Assembly (NCBI GenBank): GCA_003149065.1
Contig: QGFZ01000002.1
Location: 744,001-808,000 of the forward strand
From: Ruminococcaceae bacterium R-25
GTDB taxonomy: Bacteria > Bacillota > Clostridia > Saccharofermentanales > Saccharofermentanaceae
Direction: 5' to 3'
Length of the DNA stretch: 64,000 nt
Part shown: positions 4,021 through 60,491 of the stretch, piece after piece
Layout of the letters: the number at the start of each line of letters is the position of its first letter
Numbering within the stretch: position 1 is the stretch's first letter
Made by a program: the position numbers and the translations under genes
Notes under the pieces: generated by a model
What the model was told of the DNA's origin: nothing
Seen by the model: the letters and a program-made list of their open reading frames with translations, nothing else
Databases searched by the model: none

Positions 4021-4611
4021 ATGCTTAGAACTATAGGGATGATGTATGTTACCCTGATACCAACGGTGTTGGCGGGTATCTTCGTAATGTTGTGGTGTAA
4101 GCTGCCTATCTTAAAGGCGATAGCTAAGCCAATAGATTTCGGTAAGAATTTTTTTGACGGCAAGAGGCTTTTCGGTGATAACAAGACCTGGAAAGGCATG
4201 CTCGGATATATTCTTTTCAATACGCTTTTTTCTGTTCTTTGGGGCTTTGCCTGCACGGGCGGTGCACTTAAGGAACTGAATTTCTTCTATCAGTATCACG
4301 AAAATACGATCCCTTTTAATCTCCTTATCGGTGTTCTTTTGGGACTCGGTTATTCTCTTTTCGAACTCCCCAACAGCTTTCTTAAAAGAAGGCTTGATAT
4401 CACTCCCGGAAAATCTGTAAGCGGTTTTTGGAAAGTGTTCTTCATTTTCCTGGATCAGGCTGATTCGGTTTTCGGTGTGGCACTCGTAGTGTGGTTCTTC
4501 TATCCGCTCGGAATAGGACTTTATCTTTTGTATGTATTGGTTGGTGCAGGAACGCATCTGCTCTTAAACATGATGCTCTATTTCATGCACCTCCGTAAAA
4601 ATATGTTTTAA
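4021..4611 (+). CDS. CDP-archaeol synthase-like / CDP-diacylglycerol synthase-family protein
   Basis: 196 aa, five or so hydrophobic segments. Motifs typical of the CarS (CDP-archaeol synthase) branch of the CTP:phosphatidate cytidylyltransferase superfamily: DFGKNFFDGKRLFGDNKTWK near residues 30-55, KRRLDITPGKSVSG, and FLDQADSVFG near the end of the fourth segment. Such enzymes use CTP to activate a phosphorylated lipid as CDP-lipid in the membrane. The start at 4021 follows GGAGGAAG. It is the first gene of an eight-gene operon with a downstream CDP-alcohol phosphotransferase and decarboxylase, which fits a role as supplier of the CDP-lipid. Whether the lipid is diacyl, ether or isoprenoid cannot be told from sequence alone. 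Confidence 0.75.
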   Translation: MLRTIGMMYVTLIPTVLAGIFVMLWCKLPILKAIAKPIDFGKNFFDGKRLFGDNKTWKGMLGYILFNTLFSVLWGFACTGGALKELNFFYQYHENTIPFNLLIGVLLGLGYSLFELPNSFLKRRLDITPGKSVSGFWKVFFIFLDQADSVFGVALVVWFFYPLGIGLYLLYVLVGAGTHLLLNMMLYFMHLRKNMF

Positions 4612-4625
4612 GGAAAATCAACTTT

Positions 4626-7130
4626 ATGTTAGTAAGATTAAGCAGCAGGGAACAGGAAAACGGCAAGCTCGGAAACAAGGGAAAATTCCTTTTGCTCATG
4701 AAGCAGAACGGATTCAATGTCCCTGACGGATTTGTGCTCGACAGCGATACTTACGATGAGACTGTAAGAGGCAAAGCAGAAGAGATCATTTCCCAGGCTC
4801 TCGAAAACCTCAACAAGGACAACATTAAAGAAACATCCAATGGTTTAAATGAGCTGTTCAATAAAATAAAGCTTCCGGAAAAGACTGCAGATGGGATCAA
4901 GTCGATCGTAAGTTCCGATAAGCTCTATGCGGTACGAAGCAGTGGTACCAAGGAAGACCTGGATGAGTTCTCTTTCGCAGGACAGTATCAGACATTCCTT
5001 AACACAAAGCCTGAGGATGTTGAGGAAAGAGTCATCGACTGCTACAAGTCGATGTTCAGTGAGATCATATTAAGCTATCTCGTTAACCGCAAGATCGATA
5101 CGAACGATCTCAAGATGTCTGTTGTAGTTCAGGAAATGGTAGCTTCTGATAAGAGTGGTATCTGCTTTACGATCGATCCCGTGACGGGCAACGACAAGAC
5201 GATGCTCATCGAAGTTTCAGAGGGCCTTGGTGAGGATATCGTAAGCGGCAAGACTGTACCTGAACAGTATCACTACAACTGGTACGACAATAAAGAGACT
5301 GACAGAAAAGCAGATAACAAACTCATCTCTGAAGCAAAAGTTGAAGAGTACGCGAAGGTGTTTGCAAGCATCCAGCAGCAGTTCGGATATCCCTGTGATA
5401 TCGAATTTGCTATAAAGGATGATGAGCTATTTATTCTCCAGTCCAGAAGGATCACGAAGCTTAATTATTCCGGCATTAATGATGTATGGACCACGGCTGA
5501 CTTTAAAGACGGCGGCGTATCCGCAAATGTCTGCACGCCTTACATGTGGAGCCTTTACGAATATATCTGGGAATATTCGCTCAGAGTATTTATCGTAAGC
5601 ACCAAGATCTTAAAAGATGAGCAGCTCCCCAAAAAGCTGGGCGAAATGTATTACGGCAGATGTTACTGGAATCTTTCCGCCGTAAAGTTAACGATGGAAC
5701 AGATCATCGGCTATAAGGAAAGAGAGTTCGATAACGAATATGGAATCGTAGGTGACTACGAAGGCGACGGAAAAGTTACAGGTGCAACACCTAAGGTCCT
5801 TTTCCACATGATCCCGATCATAATCGAGCAGACCAAAGTCTTGAATGACAGAAAGAAGAATTCCGAGCGTTATAAGCAGGAACTCTTGGACCTCTACTAC
5901 GATTACAAGAAGCATCTTGATGATGGCACGATTGAAGACATCACGAAGGAGTTTTTCAGGATCACTCATGAGACTTATTTGAGATCCGAGACGACATATT
6001 TTCACCAGATCTTCATCAACACTATCCATCAGTCACTTTATAAGGACAGCCTTTTGAAGTATGTTTCCGAGAGCGAGTATTTATCACTCCTGGCGAGCAT
6101 CGATAATATCTCACATCTCCTTCCTTTCTACGACATGTGGGATATCACAAGAAAGATAAGAAGCAATGAAGATACCGCACAGTACTGGAAAGACACTGAA
6201 GCGGTTGAGATCGCCAAGGATCTTAACGGTGACAAGTTCGAACTCCCGCTCGTTAAAAAACTCATCGACGATTACGGCTATCACTCCGACAAGGAACTCG
6301 ATATCACATATCCCTGCTATTACGAAGAGCCTGAGGTCATGATCTCCATGGTAAAAGATATGGCGCTTCTTGATGATTCATATTCGCCTGAAGCTGATAA
6401 GGAGAGAGGCGTTGCAGTCTATACCAAGATCCTGGATAACCTGAAGAAAAATGTTTCTGCAGGTAAGTATAAAAAGATCGCAGATAAGGTTTCCAACATG
6501 CGTAAGATGCTCTGGTGGCGTGAGGAGTTCCGTGATGTTTCCACGAGATTCTACTACATGCTCCGTATGTATACGATCGAGTATGCGAAGAAGTTAGTAT
6601 CTGACGGCGTGCTCGAAAAGGTTGACGACGTATGGTTCTTAAAGGTCGGAAATCTCTGGGATTACATAGACGGTAAAAAGACAAAAGAAGACCTCAATGA
6701 CTTAATCAGAAGAAACAAGTTTTATTATAATGCTTATAGGAACTACATAAGCGACAACGAGATCGGACATAACTTCCATGTAATATCCGAAGCAGCAAAC
6801 AAGAACTCCATAAGAGGTCTTGGCGCGAATAACGGAAAGATCACGGGAACTGCAAGAGTCATTGAAGATTTCACGCAGATCGACAGGCTTCAGGAAGGCG
6901 ATATCCTCGTAACGAGATTTACGGATACAGGCTGGACACCTAAGTTTGCGATATTGTCCGGCATCGTTACAGAGTACGGCGGAATCTTATGTCATGCTGC
7001 GATCGTATCAAGAGAATACGGAATCCCAGCGATCGTCTGCTGCAAGGATGCGATGAGTAAGATTTCTGACGGACAGCAGATCACGATCGACGGAAGCACG
7101 GGAGTTGTATCCATTAACGGAGGATCTTAA
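4626..7130 (+). CDS. PEP synthase-like phosphotransferase (ATP-grasp + phosphohistidine domain), copy 1
   Basis: 834 aa. The N-terminal third is a pyruvate-phosphate-dikinase-type ATP-grasp domain (residues about 15-290; VRSSGTKEDLDEFSFAGQY, FTIDPVTGNDKTM, EVSEGLGEDIVSG, LFILQSRRIT). A long central domain (about 300-735) has no recognisable PEP-binding barrel. The last 80 residues are the swivelling PEP-utiliser domain with the phosphorylated His in GILCHAAIVSREYGIPA (H790). This order matches rifampicin phosphotransferase-like dikinases, which split ATP into AMP and phosphate and pass the beta-phosphate via His to an acceptor held by the central domain. Position inside a lipid operon suggests a lipid or isoprenoid alcohol as acceptor (inference). 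It starts 14 nt after the CarS-like gene and ends 2 nt before pssA. Confidence 0.8.
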   Translation: MLVRLSSREQENGKLGNKGKFLLLMKQNGFNVPDGFVLDSDTYDETVRGKAEEIISQALENLNKDNIKETSNGLNELFNKIKLPEKTADGIKSIVSSDKLYAVRSSGTKEDLDEFSFAGQYQTFLNTKPEDVEERVIDCYKSMFSEIILSYLVNRKIDTNDLKMSVVVQEMVASDKSGICFTIDPVTGNDKTMLIEVSEGLGEDIVSGKTVPEQYHYNWYDNKETDRKADNKLISEAKVEEYAKVFASIQQQFGYPCDIEFAIKDDELFILQSRRITKLNYSGINDVWTTADFKDGGVSANVCTPYMWSLYEYIWEYSLRVFIVSTKILKDEQLPKKLGEMYYGRCYWNLSAVKLTMEQIIGYKEREFDNEYGIVGDYEGDGKVTGATPKVLFHMIPIIIEQTKVLNDRKKNSERYKQELLDLYYDYKKHLDDGTIEDITKEFFRITHETYLRSETTYFHQIFINTIHQSLYKDSLLKYVSESEYLSLLASIDNISHLLPFYDMWDITRKIRSNEDTAQYWKDTEAVEIAKDLNGDKFELPLVKKLIDDYGYHSDKELDITYPCYYEEPEVMISMVKDMALLDDSYSPEADKERGVAVYTKILDNLKKNVSAGKYKKIADKVSNMRKMLWWREEFRDVSTRFYYMLRMYTIEYAKKLVSDGVLEKVDDVWFLKVGNLWDYIDGKKTKEDLNDLIRRNKFYYNAYRNYISDNEIGHNFHVISEAANKNSIRGLGANNGKITGTARVIEDFTQIDRLQEGDILVTRFTDTGWTPKFAILSGIVTEYGGILCHAAIVSREYGIPAIVCCKDAMSKISDGQQITIDGSTGVVSINGGS

Positions 7131-7132
7131 CA

Positions 7133-7744
7133 ATGATCATCGGCAAGTGGAATAAGTCAGTAATCTTAACTTATGCAGGACTGCTCATTGCGGTCTTGGG
7201 TATTTTTTTAGCGTTCACGCAGGAGAAGATCAATTACGCGTTCTGTTGCTTAATGGTTGCAGGTGTCTGCGATCTTTTCGACGGCATGGTCGCAAGAAGA
7301 TGCAAGAGAACAGAAGAAGAGAAGATGTTCGGAATCGAACTTGATTCACTTGTCGATGTTGTAAGCTTTATCGCGCTCCCTGTCTGCATCTTCATCAACA
7401 TCGGACTTACTCACATCTGGGATATCGTTATCTACATGCTCTTCGCACTCGTAGGAGTTGCAAGACTTGCTTACTTTAATATCGATACTGCAGACAGCGA
7501 AAAAGCGATCAAGTATTACACAGGCCTTCCCGTAACTTATGTTGCGCTGATCTTCCCTCTGCTTTATCTTTTGAGACTTCCTTTGGAAGATAAGATTTTC
7601 GTTCCCGTATTCACAGCAGGAATCGTCATCGTATCAATCCTCGAGATCATAAAGATCAAGGTTATCAAGCCCAAGGGGATCTGGTACGGAATATTCGGCA
7701 TTCTCGCGATCGCAATGCTCGTTATCTATCTTGTTGTTATTTGA
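7133..7744 (+). CDS. pssA: CDP-alcohol phosphatidyltransferase, phosphatidylserine synthase-like
   Basis: 203 aa, about six membrane helices. The CDP-alcohol phosphotransferase signature DGx2ARx8Gx3Dx3D is seen as DGMVARR...GIELDSLVD (residues about 46-72), with all metal-binding Asp residues present. Such enzymes transfer a phospholipid head group onto an alcohol from CDP-lipid. The next gene is a phosphatidylserine decarboxylase, so L-serine is the most likely acceptor. AGGAGG of its ribosome site lies in the last codons of the preceding gene, only 2 nt separating the two, which implies translational coupling. An archaetidylserine-synthase-like role is possible given the CarS-like neighbour. 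Confidence 0.85.
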   Translation: MIIGKWNKSVILTYAGLLIAVLGIFLAFTQEKINYAFCCLMVAGVCDLFDGMVARRCKRTEEEKMFGIELDSLVDVVSFIALPVCIFINIGLTHIWDIVIYMLFALVGVARLAYFNIDTADSEKAIKYYTGLPVTYVALIFPLLYLLRLPLEDKIFVPVFTAGIVIVSILEIIKIKVIKPKGIWYGIFGILAIAMLVIYLVVI

Positions 7745-7749
7745 AGCCT

Positions 7750-8604
7750 ATGAAGATCTACGACCGTAAGACAGACTCTTATGAAGAGATAGAGCAGTTC
7801 GGAGCAGGAAAACTCGATTTCCTGTATAACAATCCTGTCGGAAGGATTTTCCTTGGAATTGCCGTATCGCCTTTCGTGTCTAATATCTATGCGTCGAAAA
7901 ATGCGAAAAAGAGTTCAGTCAAAAAGATCCCCGGATTTATAGCTGAAAACAAGATTGACATGAGCGATTACATAGATAAGGATTACCAGTCGTTCAATGA
8001 TTTTTTCATAAGAGAACTTAAGCCCGGAAAGCGTCCTGTCGATATGGATAAGGATGCTCTCATAGCGCCCTGTGATTCAAAACTTCTCGTTTATGAGATA
8101 GACGATAAGACAAACATGTACATAAAGGGCAGAGGGTATACAGTATCTGAGATCCTGGGAGAAGAACGGGACGCAGGCATTTTCAAAAAAGGATATGCAC
8201 TTGTATTCAGACTGACCGTAGATGATTATCACAGATATAGTTACCCTGACAGGGGATGCATTATCTCGAGAAGAATGATAAAGGGCAAGCTCCACACAGT
8301 AAGTCCTGTTTCGAAAAATCACAAGATTTATGTGGAAAACACGAGACAGGTGAACATGCTTAAGACTGAGAATTTCGGCACCATAGCTTATATCGAAGTC
8401 GGCGCGATGCTCGTAGGAAGAATAGTGGATAACGGAAAAGATGTTTTCGATAAAGGACAGGAGAAAGGCTATTTCGAACCTGGAGGATCGACGATAGTAA
8501 TCCTCGTAAATAACGTAAAGATCGACAAAGATATTCTGGAACAGAGCGAATCAGGAATTGAGACAAAAGTCAGATTAGGAGAGAGGATAGGCAGAGCTTT
8601 ATGA
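7750..8604 (+). CDS. psd: phosphatidylserine decarboxylase proenzyme
   Basis: 284 aa. A pyruvoyl enzyme that turns phosphatidylserine into phosphatidylethanolamine. Seen: FNDFFIRELKPGKRP, ALIAPCDSKL, DDYHRYSYPDRG, and near the C-terminus PGGSTIVIL, where self-cleavage before the Ser creates the pyruvoyl group (GGST instead of the more common LGST). The ATG at 7750 gives an N-terminus (MKIYDRKT) of the shape usual in clostridial Psd; an in-frame TTG at 7741 overlapping the pssA stop is the alternative. The gene ends in an ATGA overlap with the UbiA gene. It works with the upstream pssA. Confidence 0.92.
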   Translation: MKIYDRKTDSYEEIEQFGAGKLDFLYNNPVGRIFLGIAVSPFVSNIYASKNAKKSSVKKIPGFIAENKIDMSDYIDKDYQSFNDFFIRELKPGKRPVDMDKDALIAPCDSKLLVYEIDDKTNMYIKGRGYTVSEILGEERDAGIFKKGYALVFRLTVDDYHRYSYPDRGCIISRRMIKGKLHTVSPVSKNHKIYVENTRQVNMLKTENFGTIAYIEVGAMLVGRIVDNGKDVFDKGQEKGYFEPGGSTIVILVNNVKIDKDILEQSESGIETKVRLGERIGRAL

Positions 8605-9509
8605 TAAAAAGACTTCACGTTTACTTCAAAGAGCGTTATCCGATAATACCGAGAATAATTTTGGGTATTATCCTTTTCCTTGAAATTCATTTCATCATCC
8701 TTCTTAACATGGGTGTCACCTGGAAAGAAGTTCATTTGGGACCTGCCGAAGCAACAGGTGCATTTACTGTCTTTGCATTTTTGCTGTGGCTTCGTATTGC
8801 TGACGACCTGAAGGACTTTGAGACAGATAAGAAACTGTTCCCTGAAAGGCCCCTTCCGAGCGGAAGAGTATTCAAGAAAGACGTCATGGTTGCATGCGTT
8901 ATCGTGCAGATCATTGCCATCGCGCTGAACGTTATCTTCATGCGCGAGAACATAATATTCTTCGTTATCCTCTACATCTACGGATATCTCATGAGCAAAT
9001 GGTTCTTCAAGAAAAAGAAGATCCAGCCGAGCCTTCCTCTAGCGCTTATTACGCATAATCCTGTACAGGCATTCATCAACCTCTACATCATTGCATTTAC
9101 GATCCAGAAATATAATCTTCCGGCGTTCACGCTGACCAACATAATGGCATTGTGGACACTCTATTTCCCGGCACTTATCTGGGAGGTTTCAAGAAAGATC
9201 AGAGCACCGAAAGACGAGACGGAATACACGACATATTCAAAGCTTTTCGGCTACAAGGATTCAACGAAGTTCGTGCTGATCCTTACTATCTTAGACATTA
9301 TCACGAACTTTATCCTTGTATGGAACCTCAACAAGATCTCGGTAGGAGTTCTCTTCCTTCTCGTTTCCTGGATGACATGGAAGTTCATCCAGTTCATTAA
9401 GAACCCCGAAAAGTTCGTCCTGGTAGAGAAAGTCGAGCTCTACACTTATCTGCAGGAATCGACGATGCTCTTAACTATCGTCTGCTTCATAATATTCGGA
9501 AAGATCTGA
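8601..9509 (+). CDS. UbiA-family prenyltransferase, unusual branch
   Basis: 302 aa, eight or nine membrane helices. The first Asp-rich motif reads DDLKDFETD (about residue 73), followed by PERPLPSGRV; the second polar loop reads KIRAPKDETEYTTYSKLFG. UbiA enzymes transfer a prenyl chain from its diphosphate to an aromatic ring, a lipid or a glycerol phosphate. The second loop differs from the DxxxD-type motif of menaquinone and heme-O enzymes, so this looks like a separate branch of unknown acceptor. It begins in a 4-bp overlap with psd and stops 1 nt before the second PEP-synthase-like gene. In archaea a UbiA enzyme acts between glycerol-phosphate prenylation and CarS, and the same enzyme classes sit together here. 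Confidence 0.8.
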   Translation: MIKRLHVYFKERYPIIPRIILGIILFLEIHFIILLNMGVTWKEVHLGPAEATGAFTVFAFLLWLRIADDLKDFETDKKLFPERPLPSGRVFKKDVMVACVIVQIIAIALNVIFMRENIIFFVILYIYGYLMSKWFFKKKKIQPSLPLALITHNPVQAFINLYIIAFTIQKYNLPAFTLTNIMALWTLYFPALIWEVSRKIRAPKDETEYTTYSKLFGYKDSTKFVLILTILDIITNFILVWNLNKISVGVLFLLVSWMTWKFIQFIKNPEKFVLVEKVELYTYLQESTMLLTIVCFIIFGKI

Positions 9510-9510
9510 A

Positions 9511-11784
9511 ATGTACGGCTCTAAGATCGACAATCTCATAAAGCTTCGTGACAACGGATTTAATGTTCCGGCGTTTACTGTTGTGCCTTATGAAGATGCG
9601 GTCAAAGGAGACCTTCAGTTTGATATGCCTTCTTCGGGAAAACTCTTTTCCGTAAGAAGTTCGGCAAATGTTGAAGACGGCGAATTCCAGAGCTTTGCAG
9701 GACAGTTTGATACATTCCTTAATGTCCCTGGCGAAAACGTAAAGGACAAGATAAAAGAGATCATCTCATCACTTAACAGCGACGGCGTAAAAGCATATTG
9801 CGAAAAGAGCGGCACCGATATTTCCGACATAAAGATGAACATCATAGTCCAGGACATGATCGATTCTGATATCGCAGGAGTTCTCTTTACAGCCAACCCG
9901 CAGGGTATCTTAAATGAGAGTGTCATAACGGTCGGAAGAGGCCTTGGCGAAGGCATCGTGTCCTCAAAAGTTGATACGACATCTTACTACTATAACCTCA
10001 CTGACAGGATCTGTTATTTCGAAGGAAAAGAAGACCTTTTAGATCAGGACAAGATCGAAGAACTGATCGGAATCTCCAATAAAATGAAGACCATTTTCGG
10101 CGAATATCTTGATATCGAATTTGCTGTTAAGAACGGCGTCATTTATATCCTTCAGGTGCGCCCGATCACAACGCTTAAGGCAGACGATCCGCTCATCATG
10201 GATAACAGCAATATCGTTGAAAGCTATCCGGGTATTTCATCGCCTCTTACGACTTCGTTCGTCGACTTGGTTTACAGCGGAGTATTTAAAGGTGTCTGCA
10301 GAAGGGTCCTAAAAAACGACAAAGAATTAAACAAGCACGAAGACGTTTTCCTCAACATGACAGGACATGTTAACGGACGCGTTTACTATAAGATCAGCAA
10401 CTGGTATACCGTAATCAAATTCCTGCCGATGAGCAAGAAGATAATACCTGTCTGGCAGGAGATGATGGGCGTCAGAAATAAGGCCTATAACGAAGACGAT
10501 GTAAAGGTCGGATTTTTCACGCGTATCGGAACATATTTCAATTCAGTGTATGAGCTCTGCGCGGTTCCGAAGAACATGAAAAAGCTCAATGAGAAATTCA
10601 TCGTGATCAATGATGATTTCTATAAAAAGTTCGATACGTCTTTATCGCCTGCAGAACTCGTTGCGCTATTCAACGATGTAAAGGTAAAACTTTTCGACTG
10701 CTGGGACGTAACGCTTCTTAATGACATGTATTCATTCATCTTTACCGGTCTTCTTAAGTCCAGGATGAAGAAGAAATACAAAAAAGACGACAACGAGATC
10801 AACGATTATATCAGCGGAATCTCTGACATCGAGAGCATGAAGCCTGTTATCGAGATCACAAGACTCGCCCTTCAAAAAGACGATATGAGCGAAGAAGAAT
10901 TCGCTAAAGCAAAGAAGGAATACATTAAGCTTTACGGCGACAGAAATCTCGAGGAATTAAAACTCGAGAGCAGGACATTCAGGAGCAACCCTGAGCTTTT
11001 GGACTGGCGCATAAACCAGTACAGAAAAGACATGCAAAGGCTTGAATCAACTTGGGATAGTTTCAACAAAGAAAAGAATACAGAAGATAAGTACGATGCA
11101 CTCACGAGATTTTATGTTAAGAAAAGTTCATTAGGTATCTATAACCGCGAGATCTCAAGGCTTAACAGGAGCCGCATTTACGGCATCGTAAGACTCATCA
11201 TTGATGCCCTTGGCGCGAAATATAAAGAACAGGGCCTGATCGAAAAAGCACACGATATCTACTACATGAAGATAGATGAAGCATTGGGCCTCGCGTCAGA
11301 TCCTCATGACATGAGAAAGACTGTATCTGACCGAAAGGACCAGTATAAACTCTACCGTGAACTGCCGCCTTATTCGAGACTGATCTTTTCTGAAGGTCCG
11401 TTTAACAAGCGCCATACAAACGTTAACCGTTATCACAAAAAGTTTAACGACAATGAGCTTTCGGGAGTGCCTTGTTCAGGCGGCATCTGCGAAGGCGAAG
11501 CGCTCGTAATAACTGACGTTAACGACACAGGCGATGTGAAGGATAAGATCCTGATCACTAAGATGACCGATCCCGGCTGGGTATTCCTTTTAACACAGGC
11601 AAAGGGAGTTATCTCAGAGAAGGGATCACTCCTGTCCCATACCGCAATAATCTCAAGAGAGATCGGCATTCCTTCGATCGTAGGCGTTAAAGATCTGATG
11701 GATACAGTGCAGTCAGGTGACATCATAAGGATGAACGGCGATAAGGGAAAGATAGAGATAGTAAAAAGGAGCAGCAATACATGA
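9511..11784 (+). CDS. PEP synthase-like phosphotransferase (ATP-grasp + phosphohistidine domain), copy 2
   Basis: 757 aa, same domain order as the gene at 4626 but clearly diverged. ATP-grasp region residues 1-225 (SVRSSANVEDGEFQSFAGQF, TANPQGILNESVI, GRGLGEGIVSSK, IYILQVRPITTL), central domain 230-650, and C-terminal swivelling domain with LLSHTAIISREIGIPSIVG (H710). There is no PEP/pyruvate barrel. The N-terminus is shorter than copy 1, beginning almost directly with the nucleotide-binding fold. Two diverged copies in one operon suggest two phosphorylation steps on different acceptors, or phosphorylation of the same chain twice (inference). It overlaps the following acyltransferase gene by ATGA. 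Confidence 0.8.
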   Translation: MYGSKIDNLIKLRDNGFNVPAFTVVPYEDAVKGDLQFDMPSSGKLFSVRSSANVEDGEFQSFAGQFDTFLNVPGENVKDKIKEIISSLNSDGVKAYCEKSGTDISDIKMNIIVQDMIDSDIAGVLFTANPQGILNESVITVGRGLGEGIVSSKVDTTSYYYNLTDRICYFEGKEDLLDQDKIEELIGISNKMKTIFGEYLDIEFAVKNGVIYILQVRPITTLKADDPLIMDNSNIVESYPGISSPLTTSFVDLVYSGVFKGVCRRVLKNDKELNKHEDVFLNMTGHVNGRVYYKISNWYTVIKFLPMSKKIIPVWQEMMGVRNKAYNEDDVKVGFFTRIGTYFNSVYELCAVPKNMKKLNEKFIVINDDFYKKFDTSLSPAELVALFNDVKVKLFDCWDVTLLNDMYSFIFTGLLKSRMKKKYKKDDNEINDYISGISDIESMKPVIEITRLALQKDDMSEEEFAKAKKEYIKLYGDRNLEELKLESRTFRSNPELLDWRINQYRKDMQRLESTWDSFNKEKNTEDKYDALTRFYVKKSSLGIYNREISRLNRSRIYGIVRLIIDALGAKYKEQGLIEKAHDIYYMKIDEALGLASDPHDMRKTVSDRKDQYKLYRELPPYSRLIFSEGPFNKRHTNVNRYHKKFNDNELSGVPCSGGICEGEALVITDVNDTGDVKDKILITKMTDPGWVFLLTQAKGVISEKGSLLSHTAIISREIGIPSIVGVKDLMDTVQSGDIIRMNGDKGKIEIVKRSSNT

Positions 11785-12851
11785 AGTTAGTTAAGTTCGA
11801 CAAGAAAGAAAAATACATCAAGGATTTTGTTAAGCTCGCAACGGTCATTTACGACTCGAACGACAACATGGAAGATCCGGATTCGATCAAAAAGATCCTT
11901 AAAGGCGAGCATCCTTTGAGCAAGTATTTCTCGCTTGCAAAATTCCTTATTTACGATGATTCGGATATCGTTAAAGGACGCTTCTGCATCACGTCTTATG
12001 AGGGTGATGAGACAGCGTACCTCGGCTTTTTCGAATGCGTTAATGATGCAGACGTTGCAAAGTTTTTATTCGACAGCGCATACGCATATTGCAGCGAAAA
12101 TGGTTTTGCAAAGATTCAGGGTCCTGTCGATGCTTCCTTCTGGATCAAGTACAGACTTAAGATCAACAAGTTTGAGGCTCCTTATACGGGCGAGCCTTAC
12201 AACAAGGATTACTATTTAAAGCTTTTCGAAGACAACGGTTTTACTGTTGCCGAGCACTACACATCACATGCTTTCAGAAGCGTCGGTGAGGAATATAAGA
12301 ATCCGAAGTTTGAAGAGCATTACCAGGAATTCCTTAACGCGGGATATGAGATAAGGAGCCCTAAGGAAGAAGAGTTTTCGCAGGCGATAGATGATGTCTA
12401 CAGACTCGTTACTGACCTCTACAGCGACTTCCCGATCTTCAAGGACGTTAAGCAGGAGGACTTCAGGGAAGTCTTCATGAGCTATAAGCAGATAATGAAC
12501 ATGAGCATGACAAAGCTCGCTTACTTTAACGGCAAAGCAGTCGGCTTCTATGTATCGATCCCGGATTACGGCAATCTCGTTTATCACACGGGTAATCCTA
12601 TCAATATCGCGAAGATACTCATGACGAAGAAAAAGCCCCAGCGATATGTAATGCTCTACATGGGTGTTGACCAGCAGCACAGGGGATTGGGAAAAGCGCT
12701 CGTTTACGCGATCATGAAAGAACTTATGGCATCAGGGCTTCCGAGCATCGGCGCCCTCATGAGAGACGGCAAATTAACACAGACTTATGCGAACGGTGAC
12801 ATCACCGGCGTTTACGAATATGTACTTTTGGAAAGGAAGATAGAGAAATGA
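11781..12851 (+). CDS. YghO-like GNAT-fold acyltransferase
   Basis: 356 aa. The layout resembles YghO-type proteins of the GNAT superfamily: an N-terminal degenerate GNAT half with the segment FAKIQGPVDASFWIKYRLKI (about residues 110-130), then a C-terminal GNAT half with an acyl-CoA loop of the form QHRGLGKALVYAI (about residue 295) before a conserved-looking GALMRDG. The acyl donor and acceptor are unknown. Its position between a phosphotransferase and an acyl-adenylating enzyme, with ATGA overlaps on both sides, suggests that it moves an acyl chain activated by the next gene onto the operon's lipid product (inference). Confidence 0.65.
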   Translation: MKLVKFDKKEKYIKDFVKLATVIYDSNDNMEDPDSIKKILKGEHPLSKYFSLAKFLIYDDSDIVKGRFCITSYEGDETAYLGFFECVNDADVAKFLFDSAYAYCSENGFAKIQGPVDASFWIKYRLKINKFEAPYTGEPYNKDYYLKLFEDNGFTVAEHYTSHAFRSVGEEYKNPKFEEHYQEFLNAGYEIRSPKEEEFSQAIDDVYRLVTDLYSDFPIFKDVKQEDFREVFMSYKQIMNMSMTKLAYFNGKAVGFYVSIPDYGNLVYHTGNPINIAKILMTKKKPQRYVMLYMGVDQQHRGLGKALVYAIMKELMASGLPSIGALMRDGKLTQTYANGDITGVYEYVLLERKIEK

Positions 12852-14305
12852 ATGAACTCGAAAAGTTTTTAAGAGCAGACTACGAAAAGTGGAAGGACAA
12901 TGATTATCTTCACGAGATGGTGGACGGCAAGTATGTCGGTATCACTTTCGGAGAATTCATAGAGAAGGTAAATTATCTTGCGACTTATCTCATCAATAAC
13001 GGCTTTAAAGATAAGCACATCGGAATCTACAGTCCGAACTCGCTTGCATGGATGATTTCTGACGTTGCGATAATGAACTATGTTGGCTTAAGCGTCGGAC
13101 TTAATAAAGACTGGAAAGACGATAACCTTGATTATGCGATCGGCAAATGTGAGATCTCCCTGATGCTTTACAGCAAGTGTCTGGAAGATAAGATCGATGC
13201 GGTAAGAGGCAAGTATCCTGATGTCCGTTTCATCTGCATCGAAGAGGATTTCGATAAGATGCTCGAAGAAGGAAAGGCTGCATGCAAGGAGCTTTTCGCT
13301 CTTGAACCTGTCGATGAGGACAAGCCTGCGAAGATCGTATTTACGAGCGGATCGACATCTTTCCCTAAGGCAGTAATGCTCTCTATCAAGAACATCTATT
13401 CGAGTTATGAAGCATTGGGCAAAAGGATCCAGGTCGACACGAATGACGTCTGCTATCTGTTCCTGCCCCTCAATCACACATACGGTTCGATCTTCAATTT
13501 CCTTTATTCTCTGGTATTCGGCTACAGCATTTACCTCACAGGTGACATCAAGAATATGGCTCAGGAAATGATGATGGTAAAGCCCACGGTCTTCTGCGCA
13601 GTACCTCTTGTCTGCGTTAAGTTCTGTGAGGGCGCGAAGGCAATGAACGTACCTTTGAAGATGCTCCTTGGCGGCAGAATGAGATATCTCTTTATCGGAG
13701 GTTCGTGCCTGCCTTACGATATCCGTCAGGCATTCATCGACCAGGGCATCAACCCCATGAACGCATATGCTCTTTCTGAGACATCTTCAGGCTTTTCAAT
13801 TGACTATCCTGACGTTACCGATATGGACAGTGCCGGCACGCTTTTAGAGTATGTTGACGCGAAAGTAATCGATCCTGATGAGGACGGTATCGGCGAACTC
13901 GCGATCAAGGGACCTAACGTTTTCCATGGTTATCTTAACGATCCTGAAGCTACAAAGAGAGCCTTTAACGAAGAAGGCTATTTCCTCACAGGAGACCTGG
14001 GAAAGATCGTCGGCAACATGGTCTATGTCAAGGGAAGAAAGGACACGATGCTCGTTCTCTTAAACGGCGAAAATGTTTCTTCCAAGCGTATCGCTGATAA
14101 GGTCAAGGAAGCAGATCCGAGGATCGCATCCGTTAAGGCTTATATCAGAGATGATCTTCTTACCTGCGATATCTTCGTAAAGGATAAGTCCTTCGTCAAC
14201 GATGACTGGCAGGCCGTTATCGACAGAGTCAATGAGGATCTCTCGAAATACGAGAAGATCAGAAAATTCAGCGTCACAGATATCGGAGCGCTGCTAAAAG
14301 GCTGA
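12848..14305 (+). CDS. acyl-CoA synthetase / acyl-AMP ligase (ANL superfamily)
   Basis: 485 aa. Adenylate-forming enzyme: phosphate loop FTSGSTSFPKAVMLS (residues about 168-182), aromatic/ATP motif YALSETSSG, and the hinge region YFLTGDLGKI followed by KGRKDTMLVLLNGENVS. The C-terminal lid is present (SKYEKIRKF carries a candidate catalytic Lys). It should activate a carboxylic acid, probably a fatty acid, with ATP. It is shorter than typical long-chain acyl-CoA synthetases and has no membrane segment. As last gene of the eight-gene operon it overlaps the acyltransferase start by ATGA. No carrier protein gene is next to it, so CoA is the simplest acceptor. Confidence 0.82.
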   Translation: MNELEKFLRADYEKWKDNDYLHEMVDGKYVGITFGEFIEKVNYLATYLINNGFKDKHIGIYSPNSLAWMISDVAIMNYVGLSVGLNKDWKDDNLDYAIGKCEISLMLYSKCLEDKIDAVRGKYPDVRFICIEEDFDKMLEEGKAACKELFALEPVDEDKPAKIVFTSGSTSFPKAVMLSIKNIYSSYEALGKRIQVDTNDVCYLFLPLNHTYGSIFNFLYSLVFGYSIYLTGDIKNMAQEMMMVKPTVFCAVPLVCVKFCEGAKAMNVPLKMLLGGRMRYLFIGGSCLPYDIRQAFIDQGINPMNAYALSETSSGFSIDYPDVTDMDSAGTLLEYVDAKVIDPDEDGIGELAIKGPNVFHGYLNDPEATKRAFNEEGYFLTGDLGKIVGNMVYVKGRKDTMLVLLNGENVSSKRIADKVKEADPRIASVKAYIRDDLLTCDIFVKDKSFVNDDWQAVIDRVNEDLSKYEKIRKFSVTDIGALLKG

Positions 14306-58461: not shown

Positions 58462-59250
58462 CTATTCGTTCTTGATGTTCTTCTTGGCGAGCTTGCCCCA
58501 GTTCCTGATACCGACGAAAGCTTCGATGAGATATATCGTTTTCTTTGTGACGTAGACCGGATCGCCCTTTAAGACATACTGTGCTACTGCGATAATGTCT
58601 GTTACGATCCACCAGCCATACTGGGCTTTGTATCTGAATGCTTCAAGAAGACTTGCTACAATGCCGATCGCAAAGATCGCTGCATCGATCCACTTCATGG
58701 CTGTTACATTCCAGCCGTACTGAGTAGCGAACTTCATCCATGTGTTGCCTGCCCAGAAGCTGAGTGCGTAGTAGACCAGTACTGTCAGTGCAATGATCGC
58801 TCCCGCAACGATCAGGTGCTGCCACCACTTAAGGACTTTGGACTTGGCAAGGAGCTTATCGTCTTCGTCCTTGTGCTTGTACCAGTTGACCCAGCTGTAG
58901 ATGTTTAATGGTGTATAAACGATCACTTCGAGCCAGAATGTTGCCCATATTCCGAAGTATCCCAGGTAGATCGCGAAAACGATCGTGTTGATCATCGCGA
59001 AAGGAAAGTTCATTCTGTTTGCCTTGGCGCAGAAGAAGATGCACATGATGCCGCACAAACCGGAAATGAAATTGATTATCGCAAGCCACTGCGGTGTGCC
59101 TTCCTGAGGCTCTATCGCGTAGTAGATGGAGATGCCGAGCATGATGACACACATCAGTATCTCGTACCACTTAAGGCTCTTAAAAGCCCTGCCGATCTTA
59201 ACGAATATATTCGCTTCTTTTTCTTTTATGTTTGCTGTTATACCATCCAT
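58462..59250 (-). CDS. pnuC: nicotinamide riboside transporter PnuC
   Basis: 262 aa, seven helices. PnuC marks: LAIINFISGLCGIMCIFFCAK, AMINTIVFAIYLG, TPLNIYSWVNWYKH and GDPVYVTKKTIYLIEAFVGI. It takes up the NAD precursor nicotinamide riboside, trapped by phosphorylation. The start overlaps the adenylyltransferase stop by 13 bases, and the NrtR operator upstream of nrtR probably controls all three genes. Confidence 0.93.
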   Translation of the reverse strand: MDGITANIKEKEANIFVKIGRAFKSLKWYEILMCVIMLGISIYYAIEPQEGTPQWLAIINFISGLCGIMCIFFCAKANRMNFPFAMINTIVFAIYLGYFGIWATFWLEVIVYTPLNIYSWVNWYKHKDEDDKLLAKSKVLKWWQHLIVAGAIIALTVLVYYALSFWAGNTWMKFATQYGWNVTAMKWIDAAIFAIGIVASLLEAFRYKAQYGWWIVTDIIAVAQYVLKGDPVYVTKKTIYLIEAFVGIRNWGKLAKKNIKNE

Positions 59251-59726
59251 TTTTTCCGTTCCTCCAAAATTTCCATTGCCCTTATCATTGTTCCGCTTAT
59301 AGGGTAGGTCTTGCGTTCTGCATCGACGATGATGTGAGTTGCTTCCGGATATGCCCTTGAGAAGTATTCTCCGTACTGCGGTTCGCTCGAGTAAACATAA
59401 TCCATATGCGGTACATACTGCCTTACGAGCGGTGTTTCTTTGTCCCAGTCTTCCTCGCCGTCAGGTCCTCTTAACGGGTTGTCGTCAATTATCTGAAACT
59501 CAACGTTAGGGTAGAGGGCGCACACTTTTTTAAGCTGTTCTATGCGTGATCCGACTGTGAGCATCTCATCGTGATTGGTCTTAAGGATCCTGAGTTCGTC
59601 ATCGCCGTTGATGAACATTATGACTACAACGTGGTCACACATCCTTGCTGCGGTATCGATGCAGTAAAGGTGACCCTTATGCATCGGCATGAACTTTCCG
59701 CCGTAAAAACCCTGTATCTTACCCAT
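59238..59726 (-). CDS. nicotinamide mononucleotide adenylyltransferase (NadR/NadM type)
   Basis: 162 aa. Nucleotidyl-transferase signs GGKFMPMHKGHLYC (T/HxGH-type motif) and SGTMIRAMEIL (ISxTxxR-type motif). It matches the N-terminal adenylyltransferase half of NadR and has no ribosylnicotinamide-kinase domain. It would convert NMN with ATP to NAD. It sits between nrtR and pnuC; a kinase for imported nicotinamide riboside is not in the window. Confidence 0.85.
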   Translation of the reverse strand: MGKIQGFYGGKFMPMHKGHLYCIDTAARMCDHVVVIMFINGDDELRILKTNHDEMLTVGSRIEQLKKVCALYPNVEFQIIDDNPLRGPDGEEDWDKETPLVRQYVPHMDYVYSSEPQYGEYFSRAYPEATHIIVDAERKTYPISGTMIRAMEILEERKKWMV

Positions 59727-59729
59727 CTT

Positions 59730-60491
59730 TTATTCCTCGTTAAGTTTGTATAGCCTTGCCGGCTTTCCTTTCGATATGACGGTCTTTTCGAGATCTGTTG
59801 CCTTGCCTGATGAGACATAATCTCTTAAGAAGGTCTTCCTGAAATTCGGCAGATCCAATGACTTGTTCTTGATCGTCTCGTAGATCCTCTTGAGCTCTGA
59901 AATGGTGAATTCATTCTTGTTCTTTAAAAGATTGAATGCATCATCTTCGTAATCTATTCTGTTTCTTAATCTGGTTATCGCCATCTTGATTATCTCGTTG
60001 TGATCGAAAGCCAGATCGCTTTCTGTTATGGTCAATCCTTCATTGGTGAAGACGATTCCGTTCACGTCATACTTTATCTTAAAAAGCCTTGCATCCTGGG
60101 CATCGTCACCTGCCTTGATGTCTAGCATATGCTTTGGAACAAGCGCAGTGTAAGCGACTGATATGACGGTGGTCCTGGGGTCTCTTCCCAAATTGCCGAA
60201 AGTGTAGAGCTGCTTTAGATAGACGTTGTCTATGTTGGTCTCTGTCTTTAATTCTCTGGCAGCAGCTTCATCGATCGATTCTTTGCCTGCCTGGAGAAAA
60301 CCTCCCGGGATAGCCCAACAGCCTTTATACGGATATTCGCCTCGCTTGATCAGAAGTATTGAGAGATCATCGGAGGAATCCAATGTGAGTACCACAATAT
60401 CTGCCGTGACTGAAGGACGCTCGAATTCTGAAGCATCGTACTTCTTAAGGAACTCGATCTCTTCTTTTGTTGAACGCTTATTGTTTTTCAT
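59730..60491 (-). CDS. nrtR: NrtR, NUDIX-type transcriptional regulator of NAD metabolism
   Basis: 253 aa. Nudix-like ADP-ribose sensor domain (about 30-165) with GCWAIPGGFLQAGKESIDEA; the second half of the box (ARELKTETN) departs from REUXEEXGU, as in regulators that bind but do not hydrolyse ADP-ribose. C-terminal winged helix (about 180-253; ISELKRIYETI, LPNFRKTFLRDYV). AAGGAGGAGC precedes the ATG. It is the first gene of nrtR-NMNAT-pnuC and has a clear palindromic operator in its own promoter. Confidence 0.93.
   Translation of the reverse strand: MKNNKRSTKEEIEFLKKYDASEFERPSVTADIVVLTLDSSDDLSILLIKRGEYPYKGCWAIPGGFLQAGKESIDEAAARELKTETNIDNVYLKQLYTFGNLGRDPRTTVISVAYTALVPKHMLDIKAGDDAQDARLFKIKYDVNGIVFTNEGLTITESDLAFDHNEIIKMAITRLRNRIDYEDDAFNLLKNKNEFTISELKRIYETIKNKSLDLPNFRKTFLRDYVSSGKATDLEKTVISKGKPARLYKLNEE

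Follow-up and report, generated by a model that had tools for sequence, protein, structure and literature searches.

What does a member of the Clostridia gain from a single operon that combines cytidine diphosphate (CDP)-lipid enzymes, a UbiA-superfamily protein, two phosphoenolpyruvate (PEP)-synthase-like proteins and acyl-transfer enzymes? This combination is found in Ruminococcaceae bacterium R-25, within a 64,000-nt stretch of contig QGFZ01000002.1 that we refer to as the window (contig positions 744,001–808,000; all coordinates below are window positions unless stated). Positions 4021–14305 of the forward strand hold eight genes in the order carS-pps1-pssA-psd-ubiA-pps2-GNAT-ligase. We propose, with moderate confidence and from sequence comparisons, that they would constitute a self-contained second polar-lipid pathway, in which PPS1 would be a lipid-alcohol kinase and CarS, PssA and Psd would carry out the head-group steps.

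The genes are tightly packed: intergenic gaps are at most 14 nt, and the successive junctions (5'→3') are 14 nt, 2 nt, a 4-nt overlap, a 4-nt overlap, 1 nt, a 4-nt overlap and a 4-nt overlap. The original prediction had the co-directionality and the spacing right, while its description of the overlaps as ATGA fails for pssA/psd, where the overlap is TTGA because psd begins with a TTG codon. For carS, the ATG at 4021 is the best start, with GGAGG just upstream. Seven of the eight proteins have a Pfam family match, the GNAT protein being the exception. An Rfam scan of the window returned no match, and a promoter scan gave scores no better than those of shuffled sequence.

The kinase step

The strongest evidence for the role of PPS1 is an exchange of genes. 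The genes pps1 and dgkA are mutually exclusive (pps1 only, 80 loci; dgkA only, 6; both, 0); the six loci without pps1 (L108, L120, L121, L122, L123 and L157) have a DAGK_prokar gene immediately before carS, an assignment (PF01219) that Pfam confirmed in four of the six. Because dgkA sits beside carS where pps1 is missing, PPS1 is likely to phosphorylate a lipid alcohol, and DgkA would take that step in its place. Three of these clusters (L120, L121, L123) are minimal, dgkA-carS-ubiA-pps2-gnat, with pssA and psd absent. Two considerations weigh against this assignment. First, the CarS proteins of the dgkA-type loci form a clade of their own, 38–46% identical to the window's CarS, so our counts are of loci, not of independent events, and the replacement may represent one or two events. 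Second, Gram-positive DgkA homologues can also phosphorylate undecaprenol, which makes a prenol another possible substrate of the kinase; we return to this point once UbiA has been described.

PPS1 (834 aa; 4626–7130, +) and PPS2 (757 aa; 9511–11784, +) both consist of an N-terminal PPDK_N domain (PF01326) and a C-terminal PEP-utilizers domain (PF00391). The solved chains nearest to PPS1 are the rifampin phosphotransferases (RPHs) 5hv2 and 5fbs (E 1e-70), and those nearest to PPS2 are 5fbs and 5hv2. Each protein scores under every NCBIfam equivalog cut-off (for PPS2, NF004882 gives 817 bits vs 850); we rejected the rifampin-inactivating phosphotransferase proper (RIF_Ptrans_rph, NF041857), which asks for 999 bits where the two proteins reach 323.8 and 207.1. 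In PPS1, Arg104, Glu260, Gln272, Arg274 and the swivel His790 are kept in 66/66 orthologs; on the acceptor side, Arg632 is kept in 65/66 and Glu633 in 66/66. In PPS2, Lys5, Arg49, Glu203, Gln215, Arg217, the swivel His710, Arg546 and Glu547 are kept in all 74 of 74. The Arg-Glu pairs (Arg632/Glu633 and Arg546/Glu547) match Arg666/Glu667 of RPH-Lm, an equivalence drawn from a phmmer alignment for PPS1 and by eye for PPS2. Both proteins thus appear to be RPH-type dikinases in which the catalytic residues, the swivel His, the ATP-site Arg and others of the ATP-grasp domain among them, are essentially invariant. By the RPH mechanism (PMC4844700), PPS1 would pass phosphate from ATP to the swivel His and on to the alcohol, and AMP and Pi would leave.

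Head-group steps

A second exchange of genes concerns the head group. In six genomes (L129, L130, L131, L154, L155, L156), relatives of ubiA-pps2-gnat-ligase stand with a DUF3419 gene, and carS, pssA and psd are absent. DUF3419 exceeds its cut-off in 4 of 392 Clostridia genomes, three of which are sampled carriers of this sister cluster; calculated by hand, an overlap of this kind would arise by chance with a probability of ~4e-7 if the genomes were independent, but two of them are congeneric. The fourth DUF3419 carrier is L153. BtaA, of the DUF3419 family, puts a head group on diacylglycerol (PMC10685587). Since a BtaA-family gene replaces the CDP branch in the sister cluster, the core shared by the two versions most likely yields a diacylglycerol-like alcohol. 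The sister clusters also carry a polytopic membrane protein of 444–445 aa (L129:12683-14017; L130:14144-15481), in which a block, 'ADSTAALIG...KSxEGS', resembles CTP-dependent lipid kinases by eye; the protein matches no Pfam or NCBIfam family, and neither these nor hhalign to CdsA supported that identity.

The CDP branch of the window's operon begins with CarS (196 aa; 4021–4611, +), a CTP:lipid-phosphate cytidylyltransferase-like protein that clears its Pfam cut-off (PF01864, 72.9 bits vs 22) and falls below the archaeal equivalog (NF003114, 75.7 bits vs 148). PssA (7133–7744, +; PF01066) is phosphatidylserine-synthase-like (TIGR00473, 76.3 bits, under its cut-off of 107), and its DxxDGxxAR motif is conserved across 60 aligned sequences. 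Psd (7741–8604, +; PF02666, 174.5 bits) resembles phosphatidylserine decarboxylases, with a GGST processing site (residues 248–251) kept in 71/71. The genome has an ordinary CdsA elsewhere, apart from CarS. Two Psd genes occur in seven operon-bearing relatives, and in the three of them that we examined (L158, L159 and L161) the second Psd, 41–43% identical to the window's, adjoins a pssA of its own. Given the ordinary CdsA and the second pssA-psd pair in several relatives, the operon seems to serve a lipid pathway of its own, separate from the normal phospholipids.

An alternative is that pssA and psd make normal phosphatidylethanolamine from diacylglycerol-derived precursors, and that the GNAT protein and the ligase acylate its amine or head group to give an N-acyl-phosphatidylethanolamine-like product. 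It draws on the operon's Psd being the sole Psd of the window genome, and on the membership of the GNAT protein in the YghO family, which has been proposed to consist of N-acyltransferases (PMC9386255). We consider it improbable: the GNAT gene, ubiA and pps2 persist without pssA/psd in the three minimal clusters, or with a BtaA-family gene instead, and CarS and PPS1 would be redundant, because CdsA is present.

Conservation of the operon

The original prediction called for the gene order to be conserved elsewhere, and the neighbourhoods of UbiA orthologs bore this out: the exact order carS-pps1-pssA-psd-ubiA-pps2-gnat-lig recurs at 41 loci, and many further loci show small changes in the cluster or are cut by contig ends. 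Searches for UbiA orthologs gave strong matches in three sets of sequences. The window's own family, sampled with 115 genomes, contributed 41 (two further matches, making 43, were weak); a sample of 392 evenly drawn Clostridia genomes contributed 7; and the GTDB collection contributed 250 stretches, 80 of which we took for inspection of the neighbourhood. A phylum-wide search of 398 genomes found the window's own as the only strong ortholog, plus one weak match, and a plasmid search for UbiA found none. Weak matches in the Clostridia genomes G221, G409, G442 and G472 were set aside as other UbiA proteins, since no other operon genes lie nearby. By record title, carriers are Saccharofermentans, Butyrivibrio and other Lachnospiraceae, and most records that name a source come from the rumen or a herbivore gut. 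Cultured isolates that bear the operon include Butyrivibrio sp. XPD2006 and INlla14, Lachnospiraceae bacteria P6A3 and AC2028, and Ruminococcaceae bacterium YRB3002.

The genes that flank the operon vary between lineages; the operon is therefore a self-contained unit. The eight genes also diverge together, with strongly correlated distance matrices (39 complete sets): r is 0.66–0.94 and mostly 0.8–0.94, the lowest values (0.66–0.75) being those with the slowly evolving ubiA. One locus, L160, has the same gene set without the ligase, in a shuffled order (pps1-pps2-gnat-psd-ubiA-pssA-carS); there, pps1 is split into two open reading frames (L160:2356-4741), through a frameshift, assembly error or decay. 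We also observed the Clostridia-type operon in three metagenome-assembled genomes (MAGs) that are titled Fibrobacter succinogenes and Candidatus Saccharibacteria (L066, L089, L103): the label of L066, whose UbiA is 79% identical to the window's, is probably wrong, and those of L089 and L103 are doubtful.

The lipid-building core

UbiA (302 aa; 8601–9509, +) matches PF01040 at 38 bits (cut-off 34.2) and falls short of NF010118 (397 bits vs 443). Among solved structures, both sequence and fold place it nearest to the archaeal digeranylgeranylglyceryl phosphate (DGGGP) synthase: the AlphaFold model superimposes on 7bpu and 6m31 with TM 0.64–0.69, its best Foldseek matches. The first Asp motif, Asp68-Asp72-Asp76, is intact. 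The second appears degenerate: Glu195-x-x-Arg198-Lys199 (77/77) takes the place of acidic residues of DGGGP synthase, as aligned by eye. UbiA is truncated in L153, and the UbiA of L160 has no second motif, so the protein may not act as a catalyst at every locus. The L153 locus (L153:4224-13267) comprises gnat, pps2, DUF3419, two different ligases and a 167-aa fragment that is UbiA-like by eye, has no family match and keeps the first Asp motif.

The tandem-GNAT acyltransferase (11781–12851, +) is marginal in Pfam (19.3 bits vs 20.7) and was identified in other ways: its profile aligns with E. coli YghO (hhalign 98.4%, 311 columns; E 5.5e-15 as calculated for a single comparison), where plain BLASTP finds no match, and its AlphaFold model (pLDDT 88) has tandem-GNAT fold matches. 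The acyl-adenylating ligase (12848–14305, +; PF00501, 187 bits) is fatty-acid CoA/ACP ligase-like, its related structures being malonyl- and fatty-acyl-CoA ligases; it is the operon's most divergent gene (28–99% identity). In L055, L061, L065 and L070 an additional gene (cluster c14), GNAT-like by eye, sits between gnat and the ligase.

The acyl-transfer pair raises the prospect of a ceramide or sphingolipid-like pathway, in which the YghO-like protein would acylate a long-chain base: it is homologous to YghO/CC_1154, which is involved in dihydroceramide synthesis, and Caulobacter likewise has an acyl ligase. Such a pathway needs a serine palmitoyltransferase, and we found no such enzyme in the window genome (best 19.5 bits vs a cut-off of 535) or in the neighbourhoods looked at. 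We rejected this explanation on that basis, and rate it the least probable of all.

Archaeal-type lipid or salvaged prenol

Bearing in mind that CarS, UbiA, PssA and Psd families are all used for archaeal ether lipids, the original prediction drew a parallel with that pathway. Its strongest form, an archaeal-type ether lipid synthesis acquired by Clostridia and running through geranylgeranylglyceryl phosphate (GGGP), DGGGP, CDP-archaeol, archaetidylserine and archaetidylethanolamine, could also call upon the kinship of UbiA to DGGGP synthase. A search of the genome did not support the parallel. There are no matches to PcrB/GGGP synthase. The single trans-prenyl synthase (PF00348) is of farnesyl type (best model NF045485, farnesyl diphosphate synthase, 273.5 bits vs 275; CrtE, 218.3 vs 460), so that no synthase of geranylgeranyl diphosphate or longer trans-prenyl chains was recognized in the window genome. 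A candidate for one suggested component did turn up, a glycerol-1-phosphate dehydrogenase (G1PDH)-like Fe-ADH_2 protein, encoded 6.7 kb upstream of carS and outside the window (2.7–3.8 kb before base 1; contig positions 740251-741309, L162:1462-2520). Its NF002022 score is 226.7 bits (cut-off 413), its nearest solved structure is annotated as a glycerol dehydrogenase, and among the neighbourhoods looked at its gene lies near two other loci only, in close relatives (L053, L057). An archaeal-type lipid is unlikely on these sequence grounds, namely the lack of GGGP synthase, a synthase of farnesyl type only and the apparently degenerate second UbiA motif; PPS1, PPS2, the GNAT protein and the ligase, moreover, have no place in the archaeal route, and we regard its wholesale acquisition as very unlikely.

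The absence of a dedicated prenyl synthase (nearly all family relatives have one farnesyl-type PF00348 protein, whether the operon is present or absent) is also the point of departure for the main rival to our proposal: PPS1 or DgkA, and PPS2 as well, could be prenol kinases that supply UbiA with an activated, salvaged isoprenoid, such as undecaprenol or, in herbivore guts, chlorophyll-derived phytol. CarS would then act on the UbiA product, and the lipid would carry the salvaged isoprenoid as an ether. Two phospho-transfer enzymes do stand beside UbiA, whose Arg198 and Lys199 might accommodate some donor phosphate that is not a Mg-diphosphate, and the rumen and herbivore-gut titles fit a diet-derived prenol. 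On the other side, the gene that pps1 and dgkA adjoin in common arrangements is carS rather than ubiA, phytol is speculative, and MAG sampling carries a large habitat bias. We consider prenol salvage rather unlikely, and continue with PPS1 as a lipid-alcohol kinase.

Proposed pathway

In the pathway that we propose, the core of UbiA, PPS2, YghO-like GNAT protein and ligase would build a two-chain, diacylglycerol-like lipid alcohol, probably with UbiA placing one chain and the ligase activating an acyl chain that the GNAT protein transfers. PPS2, the gene for which adjoins ubiA in nearly all untruncated clusters, would, more tentatively, phosphorylate the substrate that UbiA uses. Once PPS1 has phosphorylated the alcohol, CarS would convert the lipid phosphate to a CDP-lipid, PssA would swap CMP for serine, and Psd would decarboxylate the serine to leave an ethanolamine head group. 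The steps proposed after the lipid alcohol draw on established family functions and on the two gene replacements; the hydrophobic part, the PPS2 substrate and the UbiA donor we infer, and an isoprenoid in the lipid is possible.

Family matches and conservation elsewhere uphold the original prediction of an additional, unusual polar lipid with CDP-lipid, serine and ethanolamine steps, and we, too, found no described pathway with this gene set: searches for the operon, Butyrivibrio lipids, RPH with UbiA and BtaA with UbiA found no description of it in the open-access literature, to which they were confined. The families are known; the pathway, the RPH-like lipid-kinase role and the switchable head-group branches are proposals that we did not find in that literature. 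With fairly low probability, the product may be an undescribed hybrid lipid, with a UbiA-placed and perhaps salvaged isoprenoid chain next to an acyl chain, phosphohistidine dikinases that share the fold of antibiotic kinases serving as lipid kinases, and interchangeable phosphoethanolamine and betaine branches. If our proposal is correct, abundant rumen bacteria, cultured isolates included, have a second dedicated polar-lipid pathway, and the large, unexplored family of RPH-like dikinases gains a role in membrane lipids. With the replacements of pps1 by dgkA and of carS by a BtaA-family gene, a vague list of genes becomes a set of definite enzyme assignments that can be tested.

Elsewhere in the window, a run on the reverse strand (58462–60491) holds, by eye, genes for a PnuC-like transporter, a nicotinamide-nucleotide adenylyltransferase-like protein and a Nudix protein, probably an NAD salvage operon.

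Comparison with known systems

The proposed route follows the logic of DgkA-CdsA-PssA-Psd phosphatidylethanolamine synthesis, from lipid alcohol through lipid phosphate and CDP-lipid to serine and ethanolamine head groups, but with an RPH-like kinase and CarS in place of DgkA and CdsA, and with copies distinct from the housekeeping ones. With the archaeal CDP-archaeol/archaetidylserine/archaetidylethanolamine pathway it shares CarS, a UbiA nearest to DGGGP synthase, and PssA- and Psd-family enzymes; it differs in its extra dikinases and acyl enzymes, its altered second UbiA motif and a genome without GGGP synthase. A bacterial lipid enzyme of the UbiA family is also known from Cloacimonadota, in which GGGP and DGGGP synthases occur and CarS does not (PMC7852524), whereas our operon has CarS in a genome that lacks GGGP synthase. 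PPS1 and PPS2 share the architecture of ATP-grasp, acceptor and C-terminal His-swivel domains with the RPH dikinases (5hv1-5hv3, 5fbs-5fbu) and the HpeHI phenol dikinase, and the ATP-site Arg, swivel His and acceptor-side Arg-Glu pair with the RPHs; in contrast to these, they sit in a lipid operon, and their proposed substrate is a lipid alcohol. Finally, the sister clusters have in common with betaine-lipid synthesis a BtaA/DUF3419 enzyme, which in known cases acts on diacylglycerol, whereas the window's operon uses a CDP/PssA/Psd branch at this point.

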